Positions 2,855-16,551 are shown, numbered from the stretch's first letter. The stretch is DNA of 64,000 nt from a virus (IMGVR_UViG_3300025410_000010:31385-95384); one strand, 5' to 3'. The notes: generated from the letters alone by a model not told the origin. Numbers and translations: made by a program.

Positions 2855-2859
2855 CGCCT

Positions 2860-2964: not shown

Positions 2965-2970
2965 ATTGTT

Positions 2971-2998
2971 ATATTAACATCACTAGCGGGTGCGTCAA
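2971..2998 (-). promoter_or_regulatory. sigma70-like promoter, minus strand
   Basis: Minus strand TTGACG (2998-2993), 16 bases, TAATAT (2976-2971). It has the same form as the early promoters of the + strand but no gene downstream, only transcript unit A. Confidence 0.55.
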
Positions 2999-3216
2999 CC
3001 TGGCAAAACTGTGATTTGAGAGATTGGCCATGAACGAGTAAATGACTCACCTTTATAAAGTCTAAAAGCCACATAACCTCTTTTGGCACATTCCTGCCTT
3101 GCGGTATGTTCCTGCTTCCACTGTGATTCTCTACCATCTAGTATAATAACAGCGCGATCACCACAAGCTTCGAGGAGACCTTTGGCTGTTTGATTATAGA
3201 ATTGAGCATAGTGCAT
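2995..3216 (-). CDS. Hypothetical protein, 73 aa
   Basis: I chose the ATG at 3216 because GGAGG lies 9 bases upstream and the gene before ends at 3218. The product has one helix with AKGLLEACGDRAVIILDGRE and a basic C-terminal part; no family is recognised. Together with the gene at 3218 it forms a two-gene minus-strand cassette inside an otherwise + strand region. Confidence 0.6.
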   Translation of the reverse strand: MHYAQFYNQTAKGLLEACGDRAVIILDGRESQWKQEHTARQECAKRGYVAFRLYKGESFTRSWPISQITVLPG

Positions 3217-3217
3217 A

Positions 3218-3457: not shown

Positions 3458-3483
3458 TGGGATCTCCTATTGCTTATAGTATG

Positions 3484-3511
3484 ATAATAAGGTCACAATT
3501 TTATATGTCAA
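3484..3511 (-). promoter_or_regulatory. sigma70-like promoter, minus strand
   Basis: Minus strand TTGACA (3511-3506), 16 bases, TATTAT (3489-3484), then AATAGGAG and the ATG at 3457. It drives the two-gene minus-strand cassette. Confidence 0.7.
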
Positions 3512-3516
3512 CCAGG

Positions 3517-3606
3517 GACTATATGTTGTTTATGTAAACGACCTTGAGGTCAGGGTTCCCCGAAGTATACTCCCTAGCGAGTCTGCTATTGCTGGTTCGC
3601 TTTCAT
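3517..3606 (-). ncRNA. Putative minus-strand non-coding transcript B
   Basis: It lies between a minus-strand promoter (3613-3640) and the next promoter (3484-3511), with no gene. It shares with unit A the minus-strand core GACCTC-AAGGTC followed by GTTTACATAAACAA, and upstream AAAGCG and CAATAG. It may be an RNA, or a leader of the 3457-2995 cassette. Confidence 0.4.
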
Positions 3607-3612
3607 AATTCT

Positions 3613-3640
3613 ATAATAGCGTCTATAGATATAGTGTCAA
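3613..3640 (-). promoter_or_regulatory. sigma70-like promoter, minus strand
   Basis: Minus strand TTGACA (3640-3635), 16 bases ending in GC, TATTAT (3618-3613). The first ACTATATCTA-type repeat lies within its spacer, so the same factor could control both strands. Confidence 0.6.
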
Positions 3641-3712
3641 CCTACTATATGTAGTCAGTGGGTAACTATATGTAGTCCACTATATCTAGTGTTCTGAGTG
3701 ACTATATCTAGT
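3624..3712 (+). repeat. ACTATATCTAGT repeats, second cluster
   Basis: Five copies occur in 89 bases: TATAGATATAGTG (3624-3636, inverted), CTACTATATGTAGT (3642-3655), ACTATATGTAGT (3665-3676), CACTATATCTAGTG (3678-3691) and ACTATATCTAGT (3701-3712). They lie directly upstream of and partly overlap the promoters at 3613-3640 (minus) and 3715-3742 (plus). I infer a repressor or activator binding array. Confidence 0.7.
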
Positions 3713-3714
3713 GG

Positions 3715-3742
3715 TTGACTAGTTTGGAATTGAGTGTATATT
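3715..3742 (+). promoter_or_regulatory. sigma70-like promoter giving a leaderless mRNA
   Basis: TTGACT (3715-3720), 16 bases, TATATT (3737-3742). The ATG at 3749 is seven bases after the -10 box, where transcription is expected to begin, and no ribosome binding site precedes it. Confidence 0.55.
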
Positions 3743-3748
3743 GTTATT

Positions 3749-4078: not shown

Positions 4079-4079
4079 C

Positions 4080-4385
4080 ATGAGCTTCAAGGACTTTCAA
4101 CTCAACTTCTTAGATTACCTTGATCACATTAGGGCTGATTATGCTAAGACGGGTATGTATACATTAGAAGAAGCTGAACGCAAGGTTGATTTCACTAATG
4201 GAAGTAAGTATGTCAAGGTCATTGTAGACCGTAGTGTTCACTCGTTCATTGTCAAGCAGGATGATGGCAAGTTCAAGCAGGGTGACATTCTAAAGGCTGC
4301 TTCTTATGCGTCACCTGCTAAGAACTTCGCCCGCGGTAATATACTTGCTCGCAATTGGAATAGTGTAAGGTGGTCGGGAGTTTGA
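4080..4385 (+). CDS. Hypothetical phage protein, 101 aa
   Basis: It follows the nuclease gene with one base between, with GAGGGG upstream, so it is probably cotranscribed. The sequence looks like a small alpha-beta protein (YVKVIVDRSVHSFIVKQDDG) with a basic C-terminus (KNFARGNILARNWNSVRWSG). I have an impression of similar small proteins in other phages but cannot name a function. Confidence 0.6.
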   Translation: MSFKDFQLNFLDYLDHIRADYAKTGMYTLEEAERKVDFTNGSKYVKVIVDRSVHSFIVKQDDGKFKQGDILKAASYASPAKNFARGNILARNWNSVRWSGV

Positions 4386-4410
4386 CTTTTGGGTCGTTTG
4401 TGTTATTGTA
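4382..4410 (+). promoter_or_regulatory. Weak sigma70-like promoter
   Basis: TTGACT (4382-4387) overlaps the stop codon of the gene before; after 17 bases comes ATTGTA (4405-4410). The -10 is poor. The next ATG is at 4437 with AGAGAGG. Confidence 0.4.
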
Positions 4411-4436
4411 AGCTATAGCAACACAGAGAGGCTATC

Positions 4437-4730
4437 ATGCGCGACTTTGAACCTAACATGTTTTATCTCAACGTAGCTCAGGACTTAAACATTGTCGACA
4501 GCGACGACTTAGGTTATATAGCTGCTGACATTGAGAATGTTATAGAGCATCTCCAAACCATTGTTAAGTCGCTTCGTGCTAAGGAATTGGCTCACGCCTA
4601 CGACTATTATACAGAGCATCGTTATGACATTGACGGTGTCTGCGATGAGCTTGAGAGCTATTACTTTGAGCTAGACGAGCAGGTAGAGTATGCTATATCT
4701 GAAGAAGAATTCGAGCCTGAGAGCGAATAG
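4437..4730 (+). CDS. Hypothetical acidic protein, 97 aa
   Basis: A strongly acidic helical protein (about residues 25-60 IAADIENVIEHLQTIVKSL, and a C-terminal run of Glu and Asp). The charge would suit a DNA mimic or an inhibitor of a host DNA-binding protein, but that is only a guess from composition. Good ribosome binding site and a weak promoter upstream. Confidence 0.55.
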   Translation: MRDFEPNMFYLNVAQDLNIVDSDDLGYIAADIENVIEHLQTIVKSLRAKELAHAYDYYTEHRYDIDGVCDELESYYFELDEQVEYAISEEEFEPESE

Positions 4731-4741
4731 AGCCAAACTGC

Positions 4742-4770
4742 TTGATCTTTGTCATATGCGCTGTTATAGT
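4742..4770 (+). promoter_or_regulatory. sigma70-like promoter
   Basis: TTGATC (4742-4747), 17 bases, TATAGT (4765-4770), upstream of the helix-turn-helix gene at 4814. Confidence 0.6.
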
Positions 4771-4813
4771 ATAAAGACGCTGTAGACAGCGCATTGACAA
4801 AGGAATAGGCAAT

Positions 4814-5059
4814 ATGGCATTTACTCATTTAACAGTTTCTCAGGTAGAGTTTCTTGAAGACTATCTTCGTGGTACTGGCCGCACATTGACAGAGGCTCAA
4901 GCTCGTGCTACATATGGCATTGGCAACCTCCGTGCTCGCATTAGCGATCTACGTGCTGTTGGTTTACGGATTCGTCGTGAGAAGACTCAAGAGGGACGTG
5001 CGAAGTATGCTGTGAGTGCCCGTGATATCACAGGTAGCCGCGCTAAGATCTTCGCTTAA
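4814..5059 (+). CDS. Winged helix-turn-helix DNA-binding protein, 81 aa
   Basis: A helix-turn-helix can be read directly: LTVSQVEFLEDYLRGTGRTL, then TEAQARATYGIGNLRARISD with a recognition-helix-like second part, then a basic wing (GLRIRREKTQEGRAKY). Small proteins of this form are widespread in T4-like phages of aquatic bacteria. It is a candidate regulator of the early region, possibly of the operator repeats at 2276-3712. It has its own promoter, and a strong hairpin follows. Confidence 0.7.
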   Translation: MAFTHLTVSQVEFLEDYLRGTGRTLTEAQARATYGIGNLRARISDLRAVGLRIRREKTQEGRAKYAVSARDITGSRAKIFA

Positions 5060-5071
5060 TAAATAAACAAT

Positions 5072-5094
5072 AGTGGGCGGTTAATCTGCCCACT
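5072..5094 (+). terminator. Terminator-like hairpin
   Basis: AGTGGGC (5072-5078) and GCCCACT (5088-5094) form a GC-rich stem after the regulator gene. The following CTTCATCT is only partly T-rich, so it may attenuate rather than stop transcription. Confidence 0.5.
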
Positions 5095-5114
5095 CTTCAT
5101 CTAGGGAGGGATAT

Positions 5115-5309
5115 ATGTCTAGTGGAACAGCATTTCAGCAATTTGTTAATGAGTTGAGAGCAGTCGGATTTCCCATTGACAAGGTCACCGGAGGTGATAT
5201 ATACTCAGCATACCATGAGGGACTTAGTGTTCGTGAAGCAGTATATAGACTTCACAGTGTAGCAGAGTTCCGACGTAAGATGAAGCAGCATATAAAAGCG
5301 CCCGAATAG
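5115..5309 (+). CDS. Hypothetical protein, 64 aa, ending in a tRNA gene
   Basis: GGGAGGG lies upstream of the ATG. The sequence (FQQFVNELRAVGFPIDKVTG...REAVYRLHSVAEFRRKMK) looks like a small helical DNA-associated domain, without a named family. Its last codons and TAG stop are formed by the first ten bases of the tRNA-Thr gene, so the mRNA is probably trimmed by tRNA processing. Confidence 0.6.
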   Translation: MSSGTAFQQFVNELRAVGFPIDKVTGGDIYSAYHEGLSVREAVYRLHSVAEFRRKMKQHIKAPE

Positions 5310-5375
5310 CTCAGCTGGTAGAGCAACTGATTTGTAATCAGTAGGTCGGCGGTTCGAATCCGTCTTCGGGCACCA
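5300..5375 (+). tRNA. tRNA-Thr (anticodon UGU)
   Basis: Acceptor GCCCGAA pairs with TTCGGGC; the D arm, the anticodon stem CTGAT/ATCAG with loop TTTGTAA, and the T arm with GTTCGAATC are all present. CCA is encoded. It reads ACA codons. Confidence 0.95.
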
Positions 5376-5376
5376 T

Positions 5377-5453
5377 GATTCCGTAGCTCAGCAGGATAGA
5401 GCAGCTGACTTCTAATCAGCAGGTCGAACGTTCGAATCGTTCCGGAATCGCCA
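5377..5453 (+). tRNA. tRNA-Arg (anticodon UCU)
   Basis: Acceptor GATTCCG pairs with CGGAATC; anticodon stem GCTGA/TCAGC with loop CTTCTAA; T loop GTTCGAATC; CCA encoded. It starts one base after the tRNA-Thr CCA. It reads AGA, which is frequent in the AT-rich genes of this phage. Confidence 0.95.
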
Positions 5454-5495
5454 CCTAGCAGGCTAAATAGTTTACCTTGCAAGGGAGAAGAAACT

Positions 5496-5714
5496 ATGGT
5501 AAAACCAACAAATCCAACATTAGTACAATTATTTGAAACACCCCTAGTACCTGATGCTTCACATGACATTTACAGTGTCACTTTGAATTTCAGTATACCT
5601 AAGGGTTCAGACATTGAACAATTATTAGCAGACATGATGACTGGCAAGTTCGCTAGTACTCAGCCTCCATTTGTTCCAGGAACTTCTATCACAGACGTAA
5701 CTAAAATAGGTTAA
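5496..5714 (+). CDS. Hypothetical phage protein, 72 aa
   Basis: AAGGGAGAAG precedes the ATG. The opening KPTNPTLVQLFETP is similar in layout to the next protein (AQPKNPELL...), and both continue with a beta strand of the form IYSVTLNFSIP / VYDITIRYVF, so they may be distant tandem paralogs. It probably shares the tRNA transcript. Function unknown. Confidence 0.6.
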   Translation: MVKPTNPTLVQLFETPLVPDASHDIYSVTLNFSIPKGSDIEQLLADMMTGKFASTQPPFVPGTSITDVTKIG

Positions 5715-5726
5715 TTGAGGAATAGC

Positions 5727-6089
5727 ATGGCTCAACCAAAGAATCCAGAATTACTCTCAGAGAATCAGTATCTAATGACACAGGTTCCTGCGGGATTAGA
5801 TGCTACAGTATATGACATCACCATTCGTTATGTATTCAGTAATCAGATCAATCCAGAAGATGCTCTTTTAAATTGGGCTCAGGCTGCTAGTTCTGTTGCT
5901 GCGTGGCAGGGAAGAATATTAGATATTACCCCAGTTGATAACAACACTCTTCCGGCTTCTGGAGAGGGATGGAATAATTTTTCTCCATTTGTTAGCCCGT
6001 TGGTTATGTCAGTAGGAAAGCCAGTAACTCCACCGCCATCGAATGTGCCTGGTAGCATCCCACAATCAGTTCCACCTTTAAAGTTCTAA
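5727..6089 (+). CDS. Hypothetical phage protein, 120 aa
   Basis: The ATG at 5727 was chosen for the TGAGGAATAGC upstream. It shares the N-terminal P-x-NP-x-L pattern and a following beta strand with the preceding protein, then has a proline-rich C-terminus (KPVTPPPSNVPGSIPQSVPP). No membrane segment or catalytic motif is seen. Confidence 0.6.
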   Translation: MAQPKNPELLSENQYLMTQVPAGLDATVYDITIRYVFSNQINPEDALLNWAQAASSVAAWQGRILDITPVDNNTLPASGEGWNNFSPFVSPLVMSVGKPVTPPPSNVPGSIPQSVPPLKF

Positions 6090-6102
6090 TCAATAGCGTC
6101 GG

Positions 6103-6130
6103 TTGACATAATTCAATTCGACGCTATTAT
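6103..6130 (+). promoter_or_regulatory. Early promoter
   Basis: TTGACA (6103-6108), 16 bases, TATTAT (6125-6130), with GC just before the -10. It is the first of the stereotyped promoter series. Confidence 0.75.
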
Positions 6131-6152
6131 TGTGACTATAGGAGAGCATATC

Positions 6153-6365
6153 ATGCGTGAATGTAAATCAGAGATAGACTTCACTATAGACGGCAATGCT
6201 ATTTGGGTTGTTAACTTCTGGGAGGATGACGAGTTTGCATTCGCTGTGGGCTATAAGGATATGTCAACAGCCAATGAAGCCAAGCGTCGTTGGCTCGTGG
6301 GAACTGCTATAGATTTTAGTGACTTAGCCGAGGTTGACAGATTCCGGGATGATGTTATTATATAA
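6153..6365 (+). CDS. Hypothetical protein, 70 aa
   Basis: The ATG at 6153 has TAGGAGAGC upstream. The product appears to be a small alpha-beta protein (SEIDFTIDGNAIWVVNFWED, then an AxEAKRRWL helix). Acidic, soluble, no known family. First gene of the promoter-per-gene array. Confidence 0.65.
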   Translation: MRECKSEIDFTIDGNAIWVVNFWEDDEFAFAVGYKDMSTANEAKRRWLVGTAIDFSDLAEVDRFRDDVII

Positions 6366-6386
6366 TCATAAGCAAGGGAGACAACG

Positions 6387-6482
6387 ATGTTTATAGTAGG
6401 CGTGTTAATTGGTAGTGTGATTGGTTTGTTCGTCTCCTATGCTTTGATCAACCTATGGGACTTGGTTGACAGAGAAGACTAA
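6387..6482 (+). CDS. Single-span membrane peptide, 31 aa
   Basis: CAAGGGAG precedes the ATG. Almost the whole peptide is one transmembrane segment (FIVGVLIGSVIGLFVSYALI), followed by NLWDLVDRED. The Val-Asp codons near the end (GTTGAC) form the -35 box of the next promoter. Function unknown. Confidence 0.6.
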   Translation: MFIVGVLIGSVIGLFVSYALINLWDLVDRED

Positions 6483-6493
6483 GGTGCTATAGT
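6466..6493 (+). promoter_or_regulatory. Early promoter
   Basis: TTGACA (6466-6471) inside the preceding gene, 16 bases ending GGTGC, TATAGT (6488-6493). Confidence 0.8.
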
Positions 6494-6523
6494 AATATCA
6501 TAAACGCTAACAAGGAGCCTACA

Positions 6524-6952
6524 ATGGGCACTCGCAGCTTAATCGGTGTTATGGACGAGAACGGGTTTGTTAAGGGCATCTACTGCCACTGGGACGGTTA
6601 TCCAGAGCATAATGGTCGTATCTTGCGGGACCATTATAATACTCCTAGTAAGATCGTTAATCTCATAAAGCTAGGGGACTTATCTGTGCTAGGACCAAAG
6701 ATTGGTCGTAAGCATGCCTTTAGCCAGTTTGAAGTTCCTGAAGCAGAGCGTGCCGCATATGAAGCCCGCACCGAGAACTGGTGTAAAGCGTATGGACGCG
6801 ATCGTGGTGAGACATGCACAAAGGCTCACAAATATAAAGATATCTATGAGTTCCTCGCAGATGATCGCGGGCAGGATTACTCCTATGTATATGTAAACGG
6901 CAAGTGGGAGTGCCGCAACAGCGATAAGGAGCTGGTTGACATACCCGCGTAA
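6524..6952 (+). CDS. Conserved phage protein (MGTRSLI type), 142 aa
   Basis: AGGAGCC precedes the ATG. The opening MGTRSLIGVMDENGFVKGIY and CHWDGYPEHNG are typical of a small-protein family I know from many phage genomes; its role is not established. The rest is soluble and acidic with a C-terminal YVYVNGKWECRN. It ends in LVDIPA, the Val-Asp codons forming the next -35 box. Confidence 0.7.
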   Translation: MGTRSLIGVMDENGFVKGIYCHWDGYPEHNGRILRDHYNTPSKIVNLIKLGDLSVLGPKIGRKHAFSQFEVPEAERAAYEARTENWCKAYGRDRGETCTKAHKYKDIYEFLADDRGQDYSYVYVNGKWECRNSDKELVDIPA

Positions 6953-6963
6953 GGTGCTATTAT
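6936..6963 (+). promoter_or_regulatory. Early promoter
   Basis: TTGACA (6936-6941) in the last codons of the gene before, 16 bases ending GGTGC, TATTAT (6958-6963). Confidence 0.8.
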
Positions 6964-6994
6964 ATAATCGTAAACTCTAACAAGAGAGGCTGCT

Positions 6995-7465
6995 ATGCCT
7001 AATTGGTGTTCAAATACACTTTATCTTAAGCACAAAGACCGAGCCATGCTAGAGAAGGCGGCGGCTGGTTATAATGGTGAGGGCTTGTTCAAAGCCTTCC
7101 TCCCTACTCCCCCAGAGCTATTAGAGGGTGAAGGTTGGTATAATTGGAACCTAGAGAACTGGGGCACCAAGTGGGATGTTGAGCGTGGTTTCGATAGTCC
7201 TGCTGCTATAAGGTTTGATCAATTGAACTTATCATTTGAGACTGCTTGGTCACCTCCACTGGCGTTCTATGAGCATTTGGTAGAGTTAGACTTTGAAGTA
7301 GATGCATTCTACTATGAGCCAGGCATGGACTTCTGTGGTCGTTGGACTGATGGTGAGGACGACTGCTATGAAGGCACTAAGGATATTCCTGAAGACATCG
7401 ATATGGAGTTTTCTATTAGTGAGAATAATGCTATGTGGGAAGAGGAAGAAGAGGAGTCAGAATAA
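6995..7465 (+). CDS. Api92/DUF1281-like ferredoxin-fold protein, 156 aa
   Basis: The protein opens with MPNWCSNTLYLKH, the signature of a family found in phages and plasmids (Api92-like, DUF1281), followed by a helix and the FLPTPPELLEG segment usual in this family. Conserved WG and W-rich parts (YNWNLENWGTKWDV, FETAWSPPLAFYEHL) fit its ferredoxin-like fold. It ends in a run of glutamates. The family's molecular role is not known. TAA overlaps the next ATG. Confidence 0.75.
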   Translation: MPNWCSNTLYLKHKDRAMLEKAAAGYNGEGLFKAFLPTPPELLEGEGWYNWNLENWGTKWDVERGFDSPAAIRFDQLNLSFETAWSPPLAFYEHLVELDFEVDAFYYEPGMDFCGRWTDGEDDCYEGTKDIPEDIDMEFSISENNAMWEEEEEESE

Positions 7466-7614
7466 TGTTTACAGTCAAGATTGGTAAGGTAACTCAAAAG
7501 TTCGACAATTGGGAAGATGCCAAGGCTTTTGCCGAGAAGGAGTCATGGTTGCAGAATTCTCAGGCTGTGATCTTTAATAAGAGGGGGGATGCGGCTTTTA
7601 TCAGAGTGCCTTGA
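7465..7614 (+). CDS. Small hypothetical protein, 49 aa
   Basis: Translationally coupled to the gene before (TAATG). The product (FTVKIGKVTQKFDNWEDAKA, then FAEKESWLQNSQAVIF) looks like a compact alpha-beta domain. The coupling suggests a partner of the Api92-like protein. No family named. Confidence 0.6.
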   Translation: MFTVKIGKVTQKFDNWEDAKAFAEKESWLQNSQAVIFNKRGDAAFIRVP

Positions 7615-7631
7615 TTGTAAACAAGCAGGGG

Positions 7632-7659
7632 TTGACAATTGGACAGCCCCTGCTATACT
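7632..7659 (+). promoter_or_regulatory. Early promoter
   Basis: TTGACA (7632-7637), 16 bases ending TGC, TATACT (7654-7659). Confidence 0.8.
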
Positions 7660-7680
7660 AAGGGCATAAGGAGAGAGCCA

Positions 7681-7857
7681 ATGTATGCGATCCTACTTGC
7701 TGCTGCATTAACTTTGATCAACCTTAACGAATATGGGATGGTCATAGCCTCGGTTTGGTTATTCACTGGCTTGATGTGTTTCAAGATTGATTGGGTTCGC
7801 AATATGATGTTTGGATTCTATATTGTTGCTGGGTTTTGGTATTTCTTAGCTGGTTGA
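7681..7857 (+). CDS. Two-span membrane protein, 58 aa
   Basis: AAGGAGAG precedes the ATG at 7681. Two hydrophobic stretches (YAILLAAALTLINL and VIASVWLFTGLMCF, then FGFYIVAGFWYFLAG) give two or three membrane passes. The TTGACA of the next promoter begins at its last codon. Function unknown. Confidence 0.6.
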   Translation: MYAILLAAALTLINLNEYGMVIASVWLFTGLMCFKIDWVRNMMFGFYIVAGFWYFLAG

Positions 7858-7881
7858 CACTATCGAATAAGGTGTTATAGT
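7854..7881 (+). promoter_or_regulatory. Early promoter
   Basis: TTGACA (7854-7859) overlapping the previous stop, 16 bases, TATAGT (7876-7881). Confidence 0.8.
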
Positions 7882-7912
7882 AAGGTATAGGATGAGAACT
7901 AAGGAGTTGGAT

Positions 7913-8209
7913 ATGTCTACTGTTGCTGCTCGTAATGCTGCTATCAGCTTCATTCAATTCGAAGCTTCTAATGATGAACTTAATATGCTCATCGATGCTA
8001 TGAAGTATCGTAGGGCTCAATTGGCTAAGCGTAATACTTCTATGGTGCGATCTGGCTCTAAGGTATCGTTCACTAACCGTGCTGGTCAGAAGTTATTTGG
8101 CACAGTAGAGAAGGTCATGCAGAAGAACGTGATTGTGAATACGTCGCGTGGGAATTATCGGGTGCCGGCTAATATGTTAGCACCTGTCATAGATCCGGTT
8201 ATGGCTTAA
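7913..8209 (+). CDS. Conserved phage protein with SH3/KOW-like C-terminus, 98 aa
   Basis: The ATG at 7913 has AAGGAG upstream. An N-terminal helix pair (ELN-x3-DAMKYRRAQLAK) is followed by a small beta barrel pattern: GSKVSFTNRAGQKLFGTVEK, VNTSRGNYRVPANML. I know similar proteins from cyanophage-type genomes. The barrel suggests nucleic-acid or ribosome binding, by fold resemblance only. Confidence 0.65.
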   Translation: MSTVAARNAAISFIQFEASNDELNMLIDAMKYRRAQLAKRNTSMVRSGSKVSFTNRAGQKLFGTVEKVMQKNVIVNTSRGNYRVPANMLAPVIDPVMA

Positions 8210-8213
8210 CCGG

Positions 8214-8241
8214 TTGACAGCACTCATAGAGGTGCTATTAT
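8214..8241 (+). promoter_or_regulatory. Early promoter
   Basis: TTGACA (8214-8219), 16 bases ending GGTGC, TATTAT (8236-8241). Confidence 0.85.
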
Positions 8242-8288
8242 AGGACTATGGGCAATGGTGCCCAACACACACAGAAGAGGAGTTAAGT

Positions 8289-8618
8289 ATGTTTACAGTT
8301 GCTGGTCTTTCACGTCAAAATGGTGCTCTCAAGCTTCGCTTTGCCAATGACTTCGTTACGCGAGTCAAGGTGCTTCAGCGCAATGGTCATAAGGACATTG
8401 ACCTAGTTGAGTTGCCTCAGGCTATGTCAAAGGACGCTGCTGTGGCGTATTTGTCCACGCTGGCACTATTTGAGAACACAGAGGCTCAGTCGGTGTTCGC
8501 GGATTATGCTGCTAAGAATGTAAAGCAGACCCCTAAGGTTGCTGCTAAGGCACCTAAGGCTAAGACTAAGGCGAATATCGCTCAACCGACTTTTGTTCCT
8601 AAGGCTGAACTCGCTTAA
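8289..8618 (+). CDS. Hypothetical protein with Ala/Lys-rich tail, 109 aa
   Basis: AGAGGAG precedes the ATG. The first 75 residues are a soluble alpha-beta domain (AGLSRQNGALKLRFANDFVT, MSKDAAVAYLSTL); the tail is KVAAKAPKAKTKAN-like, basic and disordered, as in proteins that bind nucleic acid. A clean terminator follows, so it is the last gene of its transcript. Confidence 0.6.
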   Translation: MFTVAGLSRQNGALKLRFANDFVTRVKVLQRNGHKDIDLVELPQAMSKDAAVAYLSTLALFENTEAQSVFADYAAKNVKQTPKVAAKAPKAKTKANIAQPTFVPKAELA

Positions 8619-8624
8619 AGAATA

Positions 8625-8646
8625 GGGGGAGAAATCCCCCTTTTTT
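8625..8646 (+). terminator. Rho-independent terminator
   Basis: GGGGGA, loop GAAA, TCCCCC (8625-8640), followed by six T (8641-8646). It closes the transcript of the gene at 8289. Confidence 0.9.
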
Positions 8647-8647
8647 C

Positions 8648-8676
8648 TTGACGAGTGCCTCTACTCACTATATACT
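8648..8676 (+). promoter_or_regulatory. sigma70-like promoter of the tRNA-Met/Leu unit
   Basis: TTGACG (8648-8653) directly after the terminator, 17 bases, TATACT (8671-8676). Confidence 0.75.
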
Positions 8677-8694
8677 AGAAAATAGGAGGCAGCT

Positions 8695-8838
8695 ATGGAG
8701 AAGCAAGAAGTTTTAGATATGCTCAATAATGCTTTCGAGATTATTGAAGGTTTAGAAGGCAACGAAGATGCTTTAACTAAAGCCATGGAACATATCGATC
8801 AAGCTATTGCAATCATAGAGAAGTATGCTGCTGAATAG
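8695..8838 (+). CDS. Small acidic helical protein, 47 aa
   Basis: TAGGAGGC precedes the ATG. The whole protein is amphipathic helix (EVLDMLNNAFEIIEGLEG, LTKAMEHIDQAIAIIEKY). The G of its TAG stop is the first base of tRNA-Met, so the mRNA and tRNA are cotranscribed and separated by processing. Function unknown. Confidence 0.65.
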   Translation: MEKQEVLDMLNNAFEIIEGLEGNEDALTKAMEHIDQAIAIIEKYAAE

Positions 8839-8914
8839 TCCTCATAGCTCAATCGGTTAGAGCATCGGTCTCATAAACCGCAGGTTCTCAGTTCAAGTCT
8901 GAGTGGGGGCACCA
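8838..8914 (+). tRNA. tRNA-Met (anticodon CAU)
   Basis: Acceptor GTCCTCA pairs with TGGGGGC (two G-U pairs); loop CTCATAA carries CAT; T loop GTTCAAGTC; CCA encoded. The acceptor begins with a normal pair, so it is not an initiator type. A tRNA-Ile with modified CAU cannot be excluded. The anticodon stem has one mismatch at its base. Confidence 0.88.
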
Positions 8915-8915
8915 T

Positions 8916-8999
8916 GTCCGCGTGGTGGAATTGGTAGACACAAGGGACTTAAAATCCCTCGACTTGTTCGTGCCGGTTCGAGTCCGGCCGCGGATACCA
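8916..8999 (+). tRNA. tRNA-Leu (anticodon UAA)
   Basis: Acceptor GTCCGCG pairs with CGCGGAT; anticodon stem AGGGA/TCCCT with loop CTTAAAA; long variable arm; T loop GTTCGAGTC; CCA encoded. It starts two bases after tRNA-Met and reads TTA, a codon abundant in this AT-rich genome. Confidence 0.95.
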
Positions 9000-9003
9000 T
9001 TGG

Positions 9004-9031
9004 TTGACACAGTCCAATTAGATGCTAATAT
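9004..9031 (+). promoter_or_regulatory. Early promoter
   Basis: TTGACA (9004-9009), 16 bases ending GATGC, TAATAT (9026-9031), five bases after the tRNA-Leu. Confidence 0.75.
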
Positions 9032-9049
9032 GTATTATAGGAGGACACG

Positions 9050-9229
9050 ATGGGAATACCAAAAAACGAAGTATGTGCTATTGTAAACGAAGCACTCTGG
9101 GAAGTATTCAGGGAAGCATATCGTGAGAAGTATCATTGCTTACCATCCTCCCATATGTGGACTGAAGAAGATGTAGTCCAATGGTTTGATCGTCAATACT
9201 TCTACAATGAGGAACAAGACTATGCGTAA
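9050..9229 (+). CDS. Small hypothetical protein, 59 aa
   Basis: AGGAGGACACG precedes the ATG. The acidic helical product (CAIVNEALWEVFREAYREKY, then MWTEEDVVQWFDRQYFYN) overlaps the next gene by eight bases. No family recognised. Confidence 0.6.
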   Translation: MGIPKNEVCAIVNEALWEVFREAYREKYHCLPSSHMWTEEDVVQWFDRQYFYNEEQDYA

Positions 9230-9539
9230 AGTCTTAGCCACAACGGTCGTTGCTGTTGCCCTAGCAGCAACACCTGCTCATGCTCAGTTTTGGGGATCAA
9301 GCCCTATGTGGGGCTATGGCGGTTATGGCATGGAAATGGGAATGGGGCTCATCGGGGGTATGATCGGAGGCGCTATTGCTTCTCGTGCTATGGCAGCACC
9401 TCCCCCTCCACCCCCAGCAGTCATGGCTCCGCCTGTTGCTATACAAGAACAAGTCGAGGTTGCTCGACCATATCGATGCACTAATAGTCGTGGATGGGAC
9501 GAACGCTATGGCTGGGTTCGTAGACAATACTGCCGATAG
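9222..9539 (+). CDS. Secreted Gly/Pro-rich protein, 105 aa
   Basis: The ATG at 9222 is chosen because GAGGAACAAGACT precedes it and a signal peptide begins there: RKVLATTVVAVALAATPAHA, cleavage before QFWGS. The mature part has a glycine-methionine stretch (GYGGYGMEMGMGLIGGMIGG), a run of prolines, and two cysteines near the C-terminus (YRCTNSRGWDERYGWVRRQY C). The layout echoes the protein at 2386. It may be exported to the periplasm during infection; the function is unknown. Confidence 0.7.
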   Translation: MRKVLATTVVAVALAATPAHAQFWGSSPMWGYGGYGMEMGMGLIGGMIGGAIASRAMAAPPPPPPAVMAPPVAIQEQVEVARPYRCTNSRGWDERYGWVRRQYCR

Positions 9540-9540
9540 G

Positions 9541-9568
9541 TTGACAAGCCCTAACATTATGCTATTAT
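9541..9568 (+). promoter_or_regulatory. Early promoter
   Basis: TTGACA (9541-9546), 16 bases ending ATGC, TATTAT (9563-9568). Confidence 0.85.
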
Positions 9569-9592
9569 AAGGTATAAACAAAGGAGCAGAGC

Positions 9593-9826
9593 ATGTCAGA
9601 AGTATCCGTTTTTGAGCGCTTTCAAGACGCTGTTAACCGTCGTTCTAGCCAACTTACCCACACAGGGTTTGACTATCAAGCGGGCTTCTATGAGTCATTC
9701 CTTAAGGGATTGATCGAGACTCATCCTACTGTTGCTGCTCAGGTTAAGTCTGCTACCAAATTGCTCGAGGATTGGGCGGCTGAACAAGAAGTTCGCGATA
9801 GACTTCACATGGGGGTTGACGCATAG
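9593..9826 (+). CDS. Small helical hypothetical protein, 77 aa
   Basis: AAGGAGCAGAGC precedes the ATG. Helical and soluble (VFERFQDAVNRRSSQL, GFYESFLKGLIETH, ATKLLEDWAAEQEV). It ends in GVDA, the Val-Asp codons being the -35 box of the next promoter. Function unknown. Confidence 0.65.
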   Translation: MSEVSVFERFQDAVNRRSSQLTHTGFDYQAGFYESFLKGLIETHPTVAAQVKSATKLLEDWAAEQEVRDRLHMGVDA

Positions 9827-9843
9827 AGTATAGGTGCTATAGT
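9816..9843 (+). promoter_or_regulatory. Early promoter
   Basis: TTGACG (9816-9821) in the last codons of the gene before, 16 bases ending GGTGC, TATAGT (9838-9843). Confidence 0.85.
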
Positions 9844-9863
9844 AGCAGCATAAGGAGAGAGCG

Positions 9864-9983
9864 ATGAGTAAGTATAACCCTTATGCTGCTGCGTTGAGCA
9901 ACCCGCTCTTTCGCAAGCGTATTGTTAAATCCAAAAAAGTATACAACCGTAAGAAGGATAAGACGAATGTCCATTCTCATTAA
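9864..9983 (+). CDS. Small basic protein next to the AAA+ ATPase, 39 aa
   Basis: AAGGAGAGAGCG precedes the ATG. The product, SKYNPYAAALSNPLFRKRIV then KKVYNRKKDK, is strongly basic and of a type I recall from other T4-like phage genomes beside an ATPase gene. It overlaps the ATPase by 17 bases, so the two are probably made together and may act together. Function unknown. Confidence 0.65.
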   Translation: MSKYNPYAAALSNPLFRKRIVKSKKVYNRKKDKTNVHSH

Positions 9984-10986
9984 GTTCTCTGAGGGCACAT
10001 ATAATATCAAAGGTGAGCCTCAGAGTGTCGCTGGTATGGTGTTTCCACTCGTAGAGGAGACTAAAGAAGATGACAAGGGCTATTATGTCACGGTTGATGC
10101 TCGTGCTGTTCGCGGCTTCCCTGATCGCAACATTCGCATCCGCGTATCCCAAGCAACCGGTACGTACTCGATATCAAACGGCAACATTAGCGATCATATA
10201 GAGAAGCATATAGCAACGGAGACTGACAGTGAGATTAAGGAACGACTCCGCAGAAGGTTTAAAATCTTATCCGATATCACACAGGCTGCCAAAGAAGGTA
10301 ATGTACGGGCTGTTATCGTTAGTGGACCACCGGGCGTCGGTAAGTCCTTTGGTGTCGAAGCCCAATTGGCTAAATCAGACCTATTCAACACCATCGGTAA
10401 CAAGAAGCCTAAGTACGAGATTGTTAAAGGTGCGATGAGTGCTTTGGGCTTGTACGCTAAACTATACGAGTACAGTGAAGCAGGTAATGTTATCGTGTTC
10501 GACGACTGCGATAGCGTACTCTTAGATGACTTATCACTAAACATTCTCAAGGCTGCTCTAGACTCCAGCAAGCGTCGTTACATTAGTTGGAATACCGATA
10601 GTCGCTTGCTTGAACGTGAAGGTATTCCAAATCGCTTTGAGTTTAAAGCGAGTGCTATCTTTATCACTAACATCAAATTCGATCATGTCAAATCGAAGAA
10701 ACTGAAGGATCACCTCGATGCTCTTGAATCCAGAAGTCATTATGTTGATCTCACTATTGACAGTGAGCGCGATAAGATACTACGTATCAAACAGATTGTC
10801 GAAGACGGTATGCTACGCGACTATAACTTCGAACAAGAAGAAGTTGACGAGATACTAGAATTCGTCGACTCAAACAAGAAGCAACTCAGAGAGCTCTCAT
10901 TGCGTACTATACTTAAACTAGCGGACTTGAAGAAGTCATTCAAAGACCGTTGGCAAGACTATGCTATTGTTACATGTCTGAAGTAG
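9967..10986 (+). CDS. AAA+ ATPase, 339 aa
   Basis: The P-loop GPPGVGKS (about residue 120) and the Walker B strand NVIVFDDCD (about residue 180) are clear, followed by a sensor-like ASAIFITN (residue 240). The first 80 residues form a separate domain, and the C-terminus is helical as in AAA+ lids. It is not the clamp loader gp44: the spacing and the GPPGVGKSFG context differ, and no gp62 follows. Phage ATPases of this kind are of uncertain role. The ATG at 9967 is favoured over an in-frame start at 9922 because the small gene before fills that space. Transcribed from the promoter at 9816. Confidence 0.85.
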   Translation: MSILIKFSEGTYNIKGEPQSVAGMVFPLVEETKEDDKGYYVTVDARAVRGFPDRNIRIRVSQATGTYSISNGNISDHIEKHIATETDSEIKERLRRRFKILSDITQAAKEGNVRAVIVSGPPGVGKSFGVEAQLAKSDLFNTIGNKKPKYEIVKGAMSALGLYAKLYEYSEAGNVIVFDDCDSVLLDDLSLNILKAALDSSKRRYISWNTDSRLLEREGIPNRFEFKASAIFITNIKFDHVKSKKLKDHLDALESRSHYVDLTIDSERDKILRIKQIVEDGMLRDYNFEQEEVDEILEFVDSNKKQLRELSLRTILKLADLKKSFKDRWQDYAIVTCLK

Positions 10987-10994
10987 GAGGTATT

Positions 10995-11219
10995 ATGTCA
11001 ATCAATAATCAAATGCAAGAAGCACATGAAAGTCTGGAGATGACTTTCTCCAGAGCCGAGAGTGCCGTACATGCTCTCAAACAAGCACTATGGGATCTTT
11101 CTAAATTCCCCCACGAAGATATTAATCATTATGTGGAAGAACACGTGGGCTTAGAGAATATGGCTGCTTGGCGAGATCAAATCTTAGAAGATTGGTTCAA
11201 GGTTGACAATATGGACTAA
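10995..11219 (+). CDS. Small helical protein, 74 aa
   Basis: AGGAGGTATT precedes the ATG, eight bases after the ATPase stop, so it is cotranscribed with the ATPase. All-helical acidic product (MQEAHESLEMTFSRAESAVH, ALKQALWDL). The C-terminal VDNMD contains the -35 box of the next promoter. Confidence 0.65.
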   Translation: MSINNQMQEAHESLEMTFSRAESAVHALKQALWDLSKFPHEDINHYVEEHVGLENMAAWRDQILEDWFKVDNMD

Positions 11220-11230
11220 GGTGCTATTAT
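11203..11230 (+). promoter_or_regulatory. Early promoter
   Basis: TTGACA (11203-11208) in the end of the gene before, 16 bases ending GGTGC, TATTAT (11225-11230). Confidence 0.9.
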
Positions 11231-11256
11231 AGCATCATAAGCAATAGGAGTTGACG

Positions 11257-11472
11257 ATGCTGTACATACTCGTAGGATGTTTACAATACGGTGAATCAGA
11301 TATGCTGGGCGTTTATCGCACACTAGATGAGGCTCGCTTTTGGGCTAGAGAGGTAGCACTAGAACAGGGAGGGTATGACTCCTACGAGATAGTTCAAAAA
11401 ATGCTCAGTGAGGAAGCAGGACTTCCCCAAGTGGTTGACACACTGAACAGTGATGCTATATTAGCAGCATAA
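11257..11472 (+). CDS. Hypothetical protein, paralog of the gene at 12161, 71 aa
   Basis: The ATG at 11257 follows AATAGGAGTTGACG. LYILVGCLQYGESDMLGVYR and TLDEARFWAREVAL align with the protein at 12161 (GLYTTLDRARRARIRYL). Both look like one compact alpha-beta domain that ends with a helix. A duplication within the early array; role unknown. Confidence 0.65.
   Translation: MLYILVGCLQYGESDMLGVYRTLDEARFWAREVALEQGGYDSYEIVQKMLSEEAGLPQVVDTLNSDAILAA
11435..11462 (+). promoter_or_regulatory. Early promoter
   Basis: TTGACA (11435-11440) inside the coding end of the gene before, 16 bases ending GATGC, TATATT (11457-11462). The whole promoter is in coding sequence. Confidence 0.8.
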
Positions 11473-11487
11473 ACAAAGGAACGTCAA

Positions 11488-11673
11488 ATGGCTAAGTTCA
11501 TCGTAGAAATACAAGAGATCGTCCGCTACGCTATCGAAGTAGAAGCCAAGAGTGCCAAGAAGGCAGTCCAGAAAGCAGAGAAGCAGTTCTTCGATGCTAC
11601 CCCTGAAGAACGTTCTAAGAACTGGAACTATGAAGTAGACATTGAGTTCAGTGATGGGGACTTGATAGATTAA
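11488..11673 (+). CDS. Small DpnD/PcfM-like or similar alpha-beta protein, 61 aa
   Basis: AAAGGAACGTC precedes the ATG. The pattern is KFIVEIQEIVRYAIEVEAKS, then AKKAVQKAEKQFF, then a second strand ending in an acidic tail. A beta-alpha-beta domain with A-x-KKAVQKAE is seen in small plasmid and phage proteins of the DpnD/PcfM type; the match is by eye and weak. Followed closely by the next gene. Confidence 0.55.
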   Translation: MAKFIVEIQEIVRYAIEVEAKSAKKAVQKAEKQFFDATPEERSKNWNYEVDIEFSDGDLID

Positions 11674-11683
11674 GGAGAATCAA

Positions 11684-11905
11684 ATGGGCTATACTGTTCT
11701 TCCCCATATCGATCACGGGTTTGGCCCTCGCAAAGGACTAGAGGGCCCGTTTACATACGCCAACGGTAGAATCCTTTACTATGATCCGCGTGAAGGGCAG
11801 TATTGGGATCCCCGAACTGACATATATGTTGACAATGAGGAATTGTCAACACTACAACAGGGCTTGGTTGACATACTCCGCAAAGGTGCTAAAGTAAGAG
11901 CATAA
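11684..11905 (+). CDS. Hypothetical protein, 73 aa
   Basis: AAGGAGAATC precedes the ATG. The product contains repeated Tyr-Asp motifs (NGRILYYDPREGQYWDPRTD), which look like two strands of a small beta structure, then a helix (LSTLQQGLVDILRKG). Its end holds the next -35 box (Val-Asp). Function unknown. Confidence 0.6.
   Translation: MGYTVLPHIDHGFGPRKGLEGPFTYANGRILYYDPREGQYWDPRTDIYVDNEELSTLQQGLVDILRKGAKVRA
11868..11895 (+). promoter_or_regulatory. Early promoter
   Basis: TTGACA (11868-11873), 16 bases ending GGTGC, TAAAGT (11890-11895), all within the end of the gene before. Confidence 0.7.
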
Positions 11906-11919
11906 CAAAGGAGCATACG

Positions 11920-12111
11920 ATGTCAAAGGCAATGGATAGGTTCTTAGATAGTGCTGCACCCCGATTCACCCAGGTTCTCAAGACCAACGATCCCGCCCAG
12001 CGTGATGCTATGATGGATGCCCTGCTTGTAGAGTTCCTGAATGTAAACATCAGCAAGCGTAAACCTGCTGCTCCTAAACGCAAAGTCCGCAGAGGTATTG
12101 GGTCCTATTGA
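11920..12111 (+). CDS. Small basic protein, 63 aa
   Basis: AAGGAGCATACG precedes the ATG. A helical first half (SKAMDRFLDSAAPRFTQVLK) is followed by a basic tail (ISKRKPAAPKRKVRRGIGSY) that suggests nucleic-acid binding. The stop is overlapped by the next promoter. Confidence 0.6.
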   Translation: MSKAMDRFLDSAAPRFTQVLKTNDPAQRDAMMDALLVEFLNVNISKRKPAAPKRKVRRGIGSY

Positions 12112-12135
12112 CAACGCCCGCAGAGGTGCTATAGT
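12108..12135 (+). promoter_or_regulatory. Early promoter
   Basis: TTGACA (12108-12113) overlapping the previous stop codon, 16 bases ending GGTGC, TATAGT (12130-12135). Confidence 0.9.
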
Positions 12136-12160
12136 AAACTCATAAACAAAGGAGGCTACT

Positions 12161-12394
12161 ATGTCAAATGTATACGGAGTGTGGTATCGATGGGGGCACT
12201 TTGACGAGTTGATGGGTTTATATACTACTCTTGATCGTGCCCGTCGTGCTCGTATCCGCTATCTAGAGACTGATGGAGATCCCGACAATCTCTATATCAC
12301 TCGCATGTCATTAGACCAGGCTTGTAAGTTCTCATTTGACATCAAAGGTGAAGTGGTTGACAATGTGGCAAAGTCTGTTAAAGTAACAGCATAA
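12161..12394 (+). CDS. Hypothetical protein, paralog of the gene at 11257, 77 aa
   Basis: AAAGGAGGCTACT precedes the ATG. YGVWYRWGHFDELMGLYTTL followed by DRARRARIRYLETD aligns with the product at 11257. The C-terminal VVDNVAK contains the next -35 box. Role unknown. Confidence 0.65.
   Translation: MSNVYGVWYRWGHFDELMGLYTTLDRARRARIRYLETDGDPDNLYITRMSLDQACKFSFDIKGEVVDNVAKSVKVTA
12357..12384 (+). promoter_or_regulatory. Early promoter
   Basis: TTGACA (12357-12362), 16 bases, TAAAGT (12379-12384), inside the coding end of the gene before. Confidence 0.65.
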
Positions 12395-12409
12395 GCAAAG
12401 GAGAGTCAA

Positions 12410-12631
12410 ATGGCTAACATGTCTTACTGCCGCTTTCAGAACACTATGATGGACTTCCGTGATTGCTTAGACATCGTAGGGGAAGCCGTAGACGATGGCA
12501 AGACTATGGAGCAGTTCCTCGCAGAACTTAGCAAAGAAGAACAATATGCTTTCCAGCGTATGTTGACATACTGTCAGGACTTTATATATAACGTCGAAGC
12601 CCTCGAGGATACGGTTGACGAAGAGGCATAA
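12410..12631 (+). CDS. Hypothetical acidic protein, 73 aa
   Basis: AAAGGAGAGTC precedes the ATG. The product opens with ANMSYCRFQNTMMDFRDCLD, a pattern I recall from small phage proteins, and is otherwise acidic and helical. It ends with TVDEEA, whose Val-Asp codons form the next -35 box. Confidence 0.65.
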   Translation: MANMSYCRFQNTMMDFRDCLDIVGEAVDDGKTMEQFLAELSKEEQYAFQRMLTYCQDFIYNVEALEDTVDEEA

Positions 12632-12642
12632 GGTGCTATTAT
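12615..12642 (+). promoter_or_regulatory. Early promoter
   Basis: TTGACG (12615-12620) in the end of the gene before, 16 bases ending GGTGC, TATTAT (12637-12642). Confidence 0.9.
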
Positions 12643-12667
12643 AAACTCATAAACAGAGGAGCACACT

Positions 12668-12811
12668 ATGGGCAAGGAAACGACCGATCATATGGGACAG
12701 GTCTGCGAGAAGTGCGGCAAGGGTCACTATGAGGAAACATCTATACACGACGATTGGGACGGTGTGCTTCATTGCTCAGAGTGCGGGCACGAAGTGAAAC
12801 GACATAGTTGA
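12668..12811 (+). CDS. Zinc-ribbon peptide, 47 aa
   Basis: AGAGGAGCACACT precedes the ATG. Two CxxC knuckles (VCEKCGKGH and HCSECGHEV), 20 residues apart, form a zinc ribbon; flanking histidines may help. Such a small free-standing ribbon could bind nucleic acid or a host RNA polymerase. Its stop is inside the next -35 box. Confidence 0.7.
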   Translation: MGKETTDHMGQVCEKCGKGHYEETSIHDDWDGVLHCSECGHEVKRHS

Positions 12812-12835
12812 CAGCACCCGCAGAGGTGCTATTAT
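12808..12835 (+). promoter_or_regulatory. Early promoter
   Basis: TTGACA (12808-12813) overlapping the previous stop, 16 bases ending GGTGC, TATTAT (12830-12835). Confidence 0.9.
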
Positions 12836-12860
12836 AAACTCATAAACAGAGGAGCACAAT

Positions 12861-13157
12861 ATGGCAAAGCCAAAGTCCTTCCAAGCCCAAGTTTCGAACA
12901 CACTCGCCGCCCTAGCCGACACTGTTAGTAAACGCAGAGATGGAAGCATTGTCATCCGCAGAGGCTTCTACTATAGACACGGCACAGATGCTGAGACATA
13001 CAAAATTGCTGTATGTAAACGACTCAACGAAGCAGGAATGAACTATCACCTCAAGGACTACGGTGAGAAGTGGACTTCATTCCGAGGTGGTGCTAGCCTA
13101 GCAAGCCAAAGCCACTGGTGGGTTGAGATTTGGCCCGGGGTTGACGTACTCGCTTAA
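12861..13157 (+). CDS. Hypothetical protein, 98 aa
   Basis: AGAGGAGCACAAT precedes the ATG. The N-terminal helix (FQAQVSNTLAALADTVSKR) is followed by a beta-rich half (GSIVIRRGFYYRHGTDAETY, then HWWVEIWPGVDVLA). Conserved Trp and Tyr suggest a binding surface; no family recognised. It ends in VDVLA with the next -35 box. Confidence 0.65.
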   Translation: MAKPKSFQAQVSNTLAALADTVSKRRDGSIVIRRGFYYRHGTDAETYKIAVCKRLNEAGMNYHLKDYGEKWTSFRGGASLASQSHWWVEIWPGVDVLA

Positions 13158-13168
13158 GGTGCTATTAT
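13141..13168 (+). promoter_or_regulatory. Early promoter
   Basis: TTGACG (13141-13146) in the end of the gene before, 16 bases ending GGTGC, TATTAT (13163-13168). Confidence 0.9.
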
Positions 13169-13193
13169 AAACTCATAAACAAAGGAGCATGAT

Positions 13194-13349
13194 ATGTCCC
13201 GCAAGCACTTCAAAGCAATGGCAGAAGTAATCGCTAAGATGGAAGATCGTAAGAGCGCTCTAGATGCTGCTGAAGCATTCGCTATCATTGCTAAACAAGC
13301 AAACCCAAAGTTCAATCGTCAGCGCTTCTACGACGCTTGCGGACTGTGA
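13194..13349 (+). CDS. Small helical protein, 51 aa
   Basis: AAAGGAGCATGAT precedes the ATG. Basic helical product (RKHFKAMAEVIAKMEDRKSA, ALDAAEAFAIIAKQ) ending PKFNRQRFYDACGL. The pattern of a short helical domain ending in a DACGL motif is familiar from phage genomes; its role is not known. Confidence 0.65.
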   Translation: MSRKHFKAMAEVIAKMEDRKSALDAAEAFAIIAKQANPKFNRQRFYDACGL

Positions 13350-13351
13350 GG

Positions 13352-13379
13352 TTGACGAATACGGACTAGGTGCTATTAT
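13352..13379 (+). promoter_or_regulatory. Early promoter
   Basis: TTGACG (13352-13357) two bases after the previous stop, 16 bases ending GGTGC, TATTAT (13374-13379). It is the last promoter of the series. Confidence 0.9.
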
Positions 13380-13406
13380 AAACTCATAGACACTAAGGAG
13401 CATGAT

Positions 13407-13748
13407 ATGAACTATTCCGTTGCTGAACTCCAAGACATCCTCCAAGAAGCTCAAGCCATTGCTCAAGATGCTGCTCACAAATTCTTTATGGAGAAGCTGG
13501 GCGGTGTGGATCAATATGCTTGCGGCTTTGCTTGGGTCGACATCTACGGCATCAAGGGTAATACTAAACTAGGTAAGGCTATGAAGGCTGCGGGCTTCCG
13601 CAAGAGCTATACTGGCTCATATCAAATTTGGAACCCTGCTAAGTTCCCCTGTCAGAATATCGACACACTAGAGGAAGGCGCAAGAGCTGCCGCTGAAGTA
13701 TTCAAACGCTATGGCTTCACTGCCTACGCTGGCTCGAGACTGGACTGA
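13407..13748 (+). CDS. Conserved phage hypothetical protein, 113 aa
   Basis: AAGGAGCATGAT precedes the ATG. After an N-terminal helix come DQYACGFAWVDIYGIKGNTK and AAGFRKSYTGSYQIWNP, then a helix and YGFTAYAGSRLD. I recall proteins of this pattern in many phages, without known function. It is the first gene of a coupled run that ends at 15354. Confidence 0.65.
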   Translation: MNYSVAELQDILQEAQAIAQDAAHKFFMEKLGGVDQYACGFAWVDIYGIKGNTKLGKAMKAAGFRKSYTGSYQIWNPAKFPCQNIDTLEEGARAAAEVFKRYGFTAYAGSRLD

Positions 13749-13759
13749 GGAGAAAGCAA

Positions 13760-13978
13760 ATGAATCTTGCTAATTGGACTCACAAAGAGGTAGAGGCATC
13801 TCTCGAAGCAAATGGCTACGAGAGCGAGATAGTTGAAGCAAAGTTCGCGGGCGTTAATGCAAGCGGACAAGGTATGTTCGATATCACATTCTACAACGAC
13901 GATGCCGAGTATGGTGTTGACACAGGTAGAGTGTTCGTGGGCTTTAACAAAGATGGCATACTGGTAGGAGACTTCTAG
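13760..13978 (+). CDS. Small protein, paralog of the next gene, 72 aa
   Basis: GAGGAGAAAGC precedes the ATG. ANWTHKEVEASLEANGYESE, then AGVNASGQGMFDITF and GRVFVGFNKDGILVGDF, align along the full length with the next protein. A helix plus beta-sheet mini-domain. Its stop overlaps the next GTG start. Confidence 0.7.
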   Translation: MNLANWTHKEVEASLEANGYESEIVEAKFAGVNASGQGMFDITFYNDDAEYGVDTGRVFVGFNKDGILVGDF

Positions 13979-14190
13979 TGGATCTCTCAAAATGGACTCG
14001 ACAAGAAGTACTAGAAGCATTAGCCGAGAATGGCTATGTAGATGAATTCCTACAAGTCGAGTTCCAAGGTGTAAACGAACGCGGTCATGCTATATTTAAA
14101 ATAGCATATGAAGACATAGATAACTCTATCGGATACGGTAGAGTCTATGTGTATATCAATCAAGATGGCAAACTAGTAGGGAGCTACTGA
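13978..14190 (+). CDS. Small protein, tandem paralog, 70 aa
   Basis: It begins with GTG, whose G is the last base of the previous TAG; translation probably passes straight on by reinitiation. SKWTRQEVLEALAENGYVDE, GVNERGHAIFKIAY and GRVYVYINQDGKLVGSY match the gene before. Full-length tandem duplication. Function unknown. Confidence 0.7.
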   Translation: MDLSKWTRQEVLEALAENGYVDEFLQVEFQGVNERGHAIFKIAYEDIDNSIGYGRVYVYINQDGKLVGSY

Positions 14191-16547: not shown

Positions 16548-16551
16548 GTTA

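Follow-up and report, generated by a model that had tools for sequence, protein, structure and literature searches.

Three described phage systems resemble an array of promoters that lies between positions 6103 and 13352 of the stretch analysed here, a 64,000-base window that comprises bases 31385-95384 of the 95,384-base virus record IMGVR_UViG_3300025410_000010 and is a fragment of an uncultured large phage. According to two reports (PMC4503421, PMC4177764), the promoter early stem-loops (PeSLs) of T4-like phages place many early-type promoters among the small genes of a plastic region and serve as joints for gene shuffling, features that the array appears to share. They differ from it in that most joints in the window lack a stem-loop and the upstream gene runs into the promoter, and in that the clade of this phage is uncultured, has genome-specific leader 'dialects' and carries a spacer of 16 or 17 base pairs (bp) that is nearly fixed per genome.

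The early promoters of T4 belong to a UP/-35/TGn/-10 class (PMC2988021) and share with the array a high copy number, the TGn motif, near-consensus hexamers, a consensus extending beyond the hexamers and a presumed use of the host RNA polymerase. Unlike T4, the array shows no UP element: almost no information was found in the 18 bases upstream of the GG that precedes the -35 in this genome, and relatives have a weak A/T bias just upstream. Perfect TATAAT is never seen in the clade of this phage, and the -35 is TTGACA here while T4 sites in a control stretch are mostly TTTACA. The start-associated sequences (SAS and ESAS) of cluster K mycobacteriophages (PMC3203893) are likewise short repeats of one orientation ahead of many small non-structural genes, with the ribosome-binding site included; the ESAS consensus varies by subcluster in a dialect-like manner and the repeat sometimes contains the stop codon of the gene before it. 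SAS, however, sit at the ribosome-binding site and have been proposed to act in translation, whereas the -35, TGn and -10 are strongest here, and the 13-bp SAS GGGATAGGAGCCC at the start codon does not occur in the aligned leaders of the array.

Our preferred reading, to which we give a probability of roughly 0.75, is that the array consists of early-type promoters for the host RNA polymerase that double as recombination joints. Each would be a strong -35/extended -10 promoter for a host sigma70-type enzyme, starting a very short mRNA leader (about 15-20 nucleotides in the common form ATAAAC..AGGAG) and driving one small gene or gene pair, and the genes so controlled may be early genes of host takeover. 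As there are almost no terminators between genes, transcripts should overlap and read on into the next genes. The left part of each joint, -35 and spacer, would be the end of the preceding gene, often including its stop codon, and the right part, -10, leader and Shine-Dalgarno sequence, would be the front of the following gene. Because all joints have the short core GTGCTATTATA..CATAAAC..AGGAG, genes could be swapped with a working promoter formed each time, and the same exchange would copy right halves between neighbouring genes and give rise to a lineage-specific dialect. The array would then be a concrete, widely conserved case of a regulatory element that doubles as a gene-exchange joint. 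The large phages that carry it form an uncultivated clade, for which the phage collection searched contained no close cultured relative. The division into an upstream-gene and a downstream-gene part lets promoter-mediated shuffling of phage modules be tested from sequence alone.

Promoter sites, their conservation and the extended -10

The interval contains 19 sigma70-type promoters, all on the + strand and all with exactly 16 bp between the hexamers, in agreement with an initial annotation that had counted about 19 sites of the form TTGAC(A/G)-16-TAT(T/A)(A/G)T at 6.1-13.4 kb. With a matrix made from these sites, leave-one-out scores were 12.3-45.1 bits, compared with a maximum of 16.0 when the 95-kb record was shuffled 20 times and scored on both strands; 18 of the 19 exceed every shuffled-record match, the weakest being 6103 (sites are named by the first T of the -35, Table 1). 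The - strand has three further sites of this form, at 2998, 3511 and 3640, and others lie within the first 9.2 kb of the record. The proposed rule of one promoter per small gene holds roughly, several genes (7465, 9222, 9967, 10995 and 11684) having no promoter of their own. Most of the small genes matched PHROGs of unknown function or nothing.

Conservation among the 19 aligned copies is strongest at GG-TTGACR, RRTGC-TATWRT-A and CATAA, with GG directly before the -35 in 17 promoters and a looser leader start, (C/T)ATA(A/G), in 16. Contrary to what had been supposed, the likeness is not continuous over 45 bases, being broken by spacer positions 6-15, which carry at most about 0.3 bit each. 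The leader CATAAACA(A/G)AGGAG, also described in the initial annotation, is present in four exact copies, all at 12.1-13.4 kb, and the remaining promoters lack the exact form. A hairpin with the -35 in its loop is clear at 6103 and 7632; as a general feature it was rejected, the mean stem equalling the permuted value in this genome with a weak excess in relatives. Close upstream of promoter 11868, a palindrome at 11828-11850, GTTGACAATGAGGAATTGTCAAC, presents two head-to-head copies of the -35 core.

Related loci were located through the adjoining AAA ATPase gene, which gave about 100 huge-phage loci, and most of these carry a one-strand array of such promoters (6-26 sites per locus, compared with 0.2-0.6 expected in the strongest loci), with few or no sites at some more distant loci. 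Unrelated spacers in relatives had been named beforehand as evidence against a promoter cassette; they were indeed found, but relatives do retain the array as such. Among cultured phages, a megablast search with the region matched a tRNA only. The nearest named group, the PA5oct-like Pseudomonas phages (TerL 57%, ATPase 49%), has no comparable array near the ATPase gene (4 and 3 sites in 40 kb).

When the -10 hexamer is set at -12 to -7, the conserved TG of GGTGC falls at -15/-14, within the extended -10 (TGn at -15 to -13) that sigma70 reads (PMC2988021). TGn is present in 18 of the 19 array promoters, and the exact GGTGC that had been ascribed to most of them in only 11. The CA of aligned positions 33/34 falls at -1/+1 and is there in 13 of 19, and the remainder of the leader, ATAAAC..AGGAG, forms a short 5' untranslated region that includes the Shine-Dalgarno sequence. 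Across 30 genomes, TGn accompanies 91% of TATTAT, 80% of TATAGT and 40% of perfect TATAAT hexamers, with a genome-stratified odds ratio of 2.4 for TGn with a weak -10. The contrast between weak and perfect -10 hexamers is marked at locus L054 (12/14 versus 4/26, p=2e-5), and the trend is weak in the group with 17-bp spacers alone (p=0.09); in the clade of this phage (G000, together with L002 and L003), a perfect -10 occurs in 0 sites and TGn in 64 of 70. A TG that replaces a weak -10 is the selection expected of sigma70 itself, which makes a separate factor reading GGTGC, as once suggested, unnecessary, and GGTGC appears to be the extended -10 of sigma70 rather than the site of a new factor. 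RNA polymerase beta and sigma70 region 2 domains were not found in nine clade records or in PA5oct, which is weak evidence because the records are fragments; the array promoters would be recognized by the host RNA polymerase.

Two-part promoters, leader dialects and gene exchange

The upstream open reading frame (ORF) enters the promoter in 13 of the 19 cases (at 6466 the overlap was taken directly from the sequence), and the stops used are TGA within TTGACA (+1), TAA at +14, +29 or +35, and TAG at +8. In L002 and L003 the TGA of the -35 ends about half of the upstream genes; the promoters of L054 are mostly intergenic. Where two promoters in the window have leaders about 0.8-0.96 alike, their spacers are 0.09-0.55 identical (0.30 for all pairs), with the exception of 12108/12808 at 0.82. 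Between genomes, spacer identity is 0.386 where only the upstream gene is orthologous, 0.327 where only the downstream gene is and 0.312 where neither is, and the corresponding leader similarities are 0.45, 0.531 and 0.397. The effects are modest and come from non-independent pairs; their direction is that expected from exchange inside the promoter. The '45-base cassette' is two halves: -35 and spacer go with the upstream gene, as part of its 3' end, and the rest goes with the downstream gene. The downstream half, from the extended -10 through the leader and Shine-Dalgarno sequence to the start codon (about 38 bp), seems to be what is alike between copies. Recombination, as proposed for the spread of the promoter, is supported by junctions in relatives that lie inside it, but not the spread of a 45-base unit, since the spacers are mostly unrelated.

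The leaders form genome-specific dialects, with AAACTCATAAACARAGGAGC in this phage, AAGAACATAGGGCAAACA in L054 and ATAAACATAAGCTAACACAACGGAGAAC among L002/L003 types. For 17 of 22 sites in this genome the nearest leader is another copy from the same genome, and for none of the 22 is it the orthologue; between L002 and L003 (ATPase identity 91%), leader similarity is 0.81 for orthologues and 0.53 for the rest. Leader pairs more than 0.8 alike that stand before unrelated genes make up 1.5% of pairs within genomes versus 0.1% between them. Likeness is greater between neighbouring copies in G000 (P=0.0005), L002 (P<0.0005) and L003 (P=0.04), with no such excess in L054 or L046.

Among 2.9 million viral contigs, three stretches were found to carry the dialect of this phage: L086 is another contig of the same phage, and L084 and L085 belong to a close relative. 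L085 has two copies of the promoter that matches 12108. The genes on both sides match at one copy (11925), and at the other (14356) identity is 0.9-1.0 to about +40 and near chance after, the end of the leader being GGGGAGCATGATATG, which resembles AGGAGCATGATATG at 13141. Identity is also lost past +40 at L085 12174 (matching 12357), and at 11685 (matching 11868) it rises from near chance on the upstream side to 0.95 by +40. Homology blocks shared by L002 and L003 often begin at -3 to -1 or +17/+18 and often finish at +28 or +50 to +66, and whole genes differ between promoters in the relatives compared. In comparisons across 28 genomes, relatives have lost the adjacency of a gene pair in 33% of cases where a promoter separates the two genes, versus 18% where none does (pair-stratified odds ratio 2.0; bootstrap over genomes, difference 0.07-0.26; permutation of labels within genomes, P<0.001). 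Recombination from joint to joint would be the molecular cause.

Spacer length and competing explanations

A spacer of 17 bp is usual among the related loci, and 16 bp is found only in G000/L001, L002, L003 and L054. A single-gene tree built from 78 distinct ATPases shows 16 bp in two well-separated places, which were joined in 0% of bootstrap trees, and the starred branches of this tree force two changes of spacer length; the 16-bp state therefore seems to have arisen at least twice. The coordinated change provides a natural case for weighing concerted evolution against selection in regulatory DNA. A more ambitious and rather doubtful version of our reading would make the array a self-homogenising gene-exchange platform of a huge-phage clade, with two-part joints, in which recombination between promoters rewrites the copies together and, on at least two independent occasions, has shortened nearly all spacers of the array from 17 to 16 bp. 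The uniform 16-bp spacer of the L054 array was discarded as proof of copying, since 16 bp also prevails at L054 sites outside the array (14/20) and spacer length alone cannot separate copying from selection. One related locus, L044 (record G002, 363,943 bases), has identical promoter sequences at both ends, at ~0.7-1.4 kb and 362.5-363.3 kb, which suggests that the genome is nearly complete and either terminally redundant or circular.

Several points weigh against promoters that double as recombination joints. The array is known here from sequence alone, and the coincidence of alignment ends with promoters is due in part to conservation of the promoter irrespective of the flanking genes. Operon selection on gene pairs without a promoter may also yield the 33% versus 18% of broken pairs, and selection by host or lineage may contribute to the uniformity of the spacer, as the L054 sites outside the array illustrate. 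The likeness of most leaders is moderate (their mean within this genome is 0.47), and recent copying therefore accounts for a subset only. Selection may instead be the sole cause, with promoters held near one optimum of the host polymerase and ribosome, and with likeness, spacer and dialects arising in parallel without copying. The most conserved positions are all functional (-35, TGn, -10, -1/+1 and Shine-Dalgarno) around a random spacer, the 16-bp preference of L054 reaches beyond its array, and a 25-kb control stretch of T4 has a 17-bp spacer at 7 of 8 sites, so that a fixed spacer alone is not unusual. We nevertheless judge selection alone to be unlikely, because leaders 80-96% identical, including at positions without evident function, front unrelated genes in one genome, such pairs are far commoner within genomes than between them, neighbouring copies are more alike and the homology junctions of L085 fall inside the promoter.

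We attach still less weight to a non-sigma70 factor of phage or host that binds GGTGC, or the GG before the -35, and co-regulates the array. This GG is kept in this genome, the 17-bp group and L054 for no known sigma70 reason, and some 17-bp relatives have half-site-like TTGG repeats; yet the position of the TG is that of the extended -10, and whether a TG is present depends on how strong the -10 is, and the GG is missing in L002/L003, whose arrays are otherwise alike. A true PeSL system, in which promoter and terminator stem-loop form one mobile element, is comparably improbable, although genes do shuffle at promoters, terminator-like stems lie upstream of 15-19% of promoters in relatives versus 2-4% of random places, and one clear terminator (8624-8641) precedes the extra promoter at 8648. 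The corresponding stems in this genome reach only 9% versus 5% at random places, and the overlap of the upstream gene with the promoter in 13 of 19 cases leaves no space for a stem-loop. The array does have promoters between small genes of a plastic region and the element at gene-exchange joints, and was not classed as PeSL because this genome lacks the stem-loop. The best reading is that it may work like the PeSLs of T4 minus the stem-loop.

Feature coordinates and surroundings

Table 1. Promoter and leader features in the window
Feature	Position	Strand	First T of -35	Remarks
Promoter and leader of gene 6153-6365	6101..6152	+	6103	Weakest match; no TGn; inverted repeat around -35
Promoter and leader of gene 6387-6482	6332..6386	+	6334	Upstream gene terminates within
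Promoter and leader of gene 6524-6952	6464..6523	+	6466	Upstream gene terminates within
Promoter and leader of gene 6995-7465	6934..6994	+	6936	Upstream gene terminates within
Promoter and leader of gene 7681-7857	7630..7680	+	7632	Inverted repeat around -35
Promoter and leader of gene 7913-8209	7852..7912	+	7854	Upstream stop TGA lies in -35
Promoter and leader of gene 8289-8618	8212..8288	+	8214	
Terminator 8624-8641, T run, then 17-bp-spacer promoter 8648-8676 and leader of gene 8695-8838	8624..8694	+	8648	
Promoter and leader of gene 9050-9229	9002..9049	+	9004	Directly 3' of tRNA-Leu
Promoter and leader of gene 9593-9826	9539..9592	+	9541	
Promoter and leader of gene 9864-9983	9814..9863	+	9816	Upstream gene terminates within; AAA ATPase gene 9967-10986 next
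Promoter and leader of gene 11257-11472	11201..11256	+	11203	Upstream gene terminates within
Promoter and leader of gene 11488-11673	11433..11487	+	11435	Upstream gene open through to leader TAA
Promoter and leader of gene 11920-12111	11866..11919	+	11868	L085 homology junction inside
Promoter and leader of gene 12161-12394	12106..12160	+	12108	Upstream stop in -35; L085 homology junction
Promoter and leader of gene 12410-12631	12355..12409	+	12357	Upstream ORF covers all to leader TAA; L085 homology junction
Promoter and leader of gene 12668-12811	12613..12667	+	12615	Near-identical right half, group at 12.1-13.4 kb
Promoter and leader of gene 12861-13157	12806..12860	+	12808	Near-identical right half; upstream stop in -35
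Promoter and leader of gene 13194-13349	13139..13193	+	13141	Near-identical right half; upstream gene terminates within
Promoter and leader of gene 13407-13748	13350..13406	+	13352	Near-identical right half
Same-form promoter, opposite strand	2971..3000	-	2998	
Two same-form promoters, opposite strand	3484..3642	-	3511, 3640	

The array region (2001-14000) has a G+C content of 43-47%, compared with 29-41% for most of the remaining window. Genes for tRNA-Thr/Arg (5300-5453) and tRNA-Met/Leu (8838-8999) lie beside and within the array, and neighbouring pairs of small paralogues without an intervening promoter occur at 5496/5727 (5496-6089) and 13760/13978 (13760-14190). Farther on, 15753-20456 holds at least four paralogous genes on the - strand, of about 254-285 amino acids, several of them beginning like MTVWVFGDSF and judged by eye to be SGNH-hydrolase-like. 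A Nol-like carbamoyltransferase gene (PHROG 1601) lies at 24811-26310 on the - strand, the terminase gene at 45005-46573 has its nearest named relatives in PA5oct-like Pseudomonas jumbo phages (57%), and a very long tail sheath protein of 1145 amino acids is encoded at 51539-54976.

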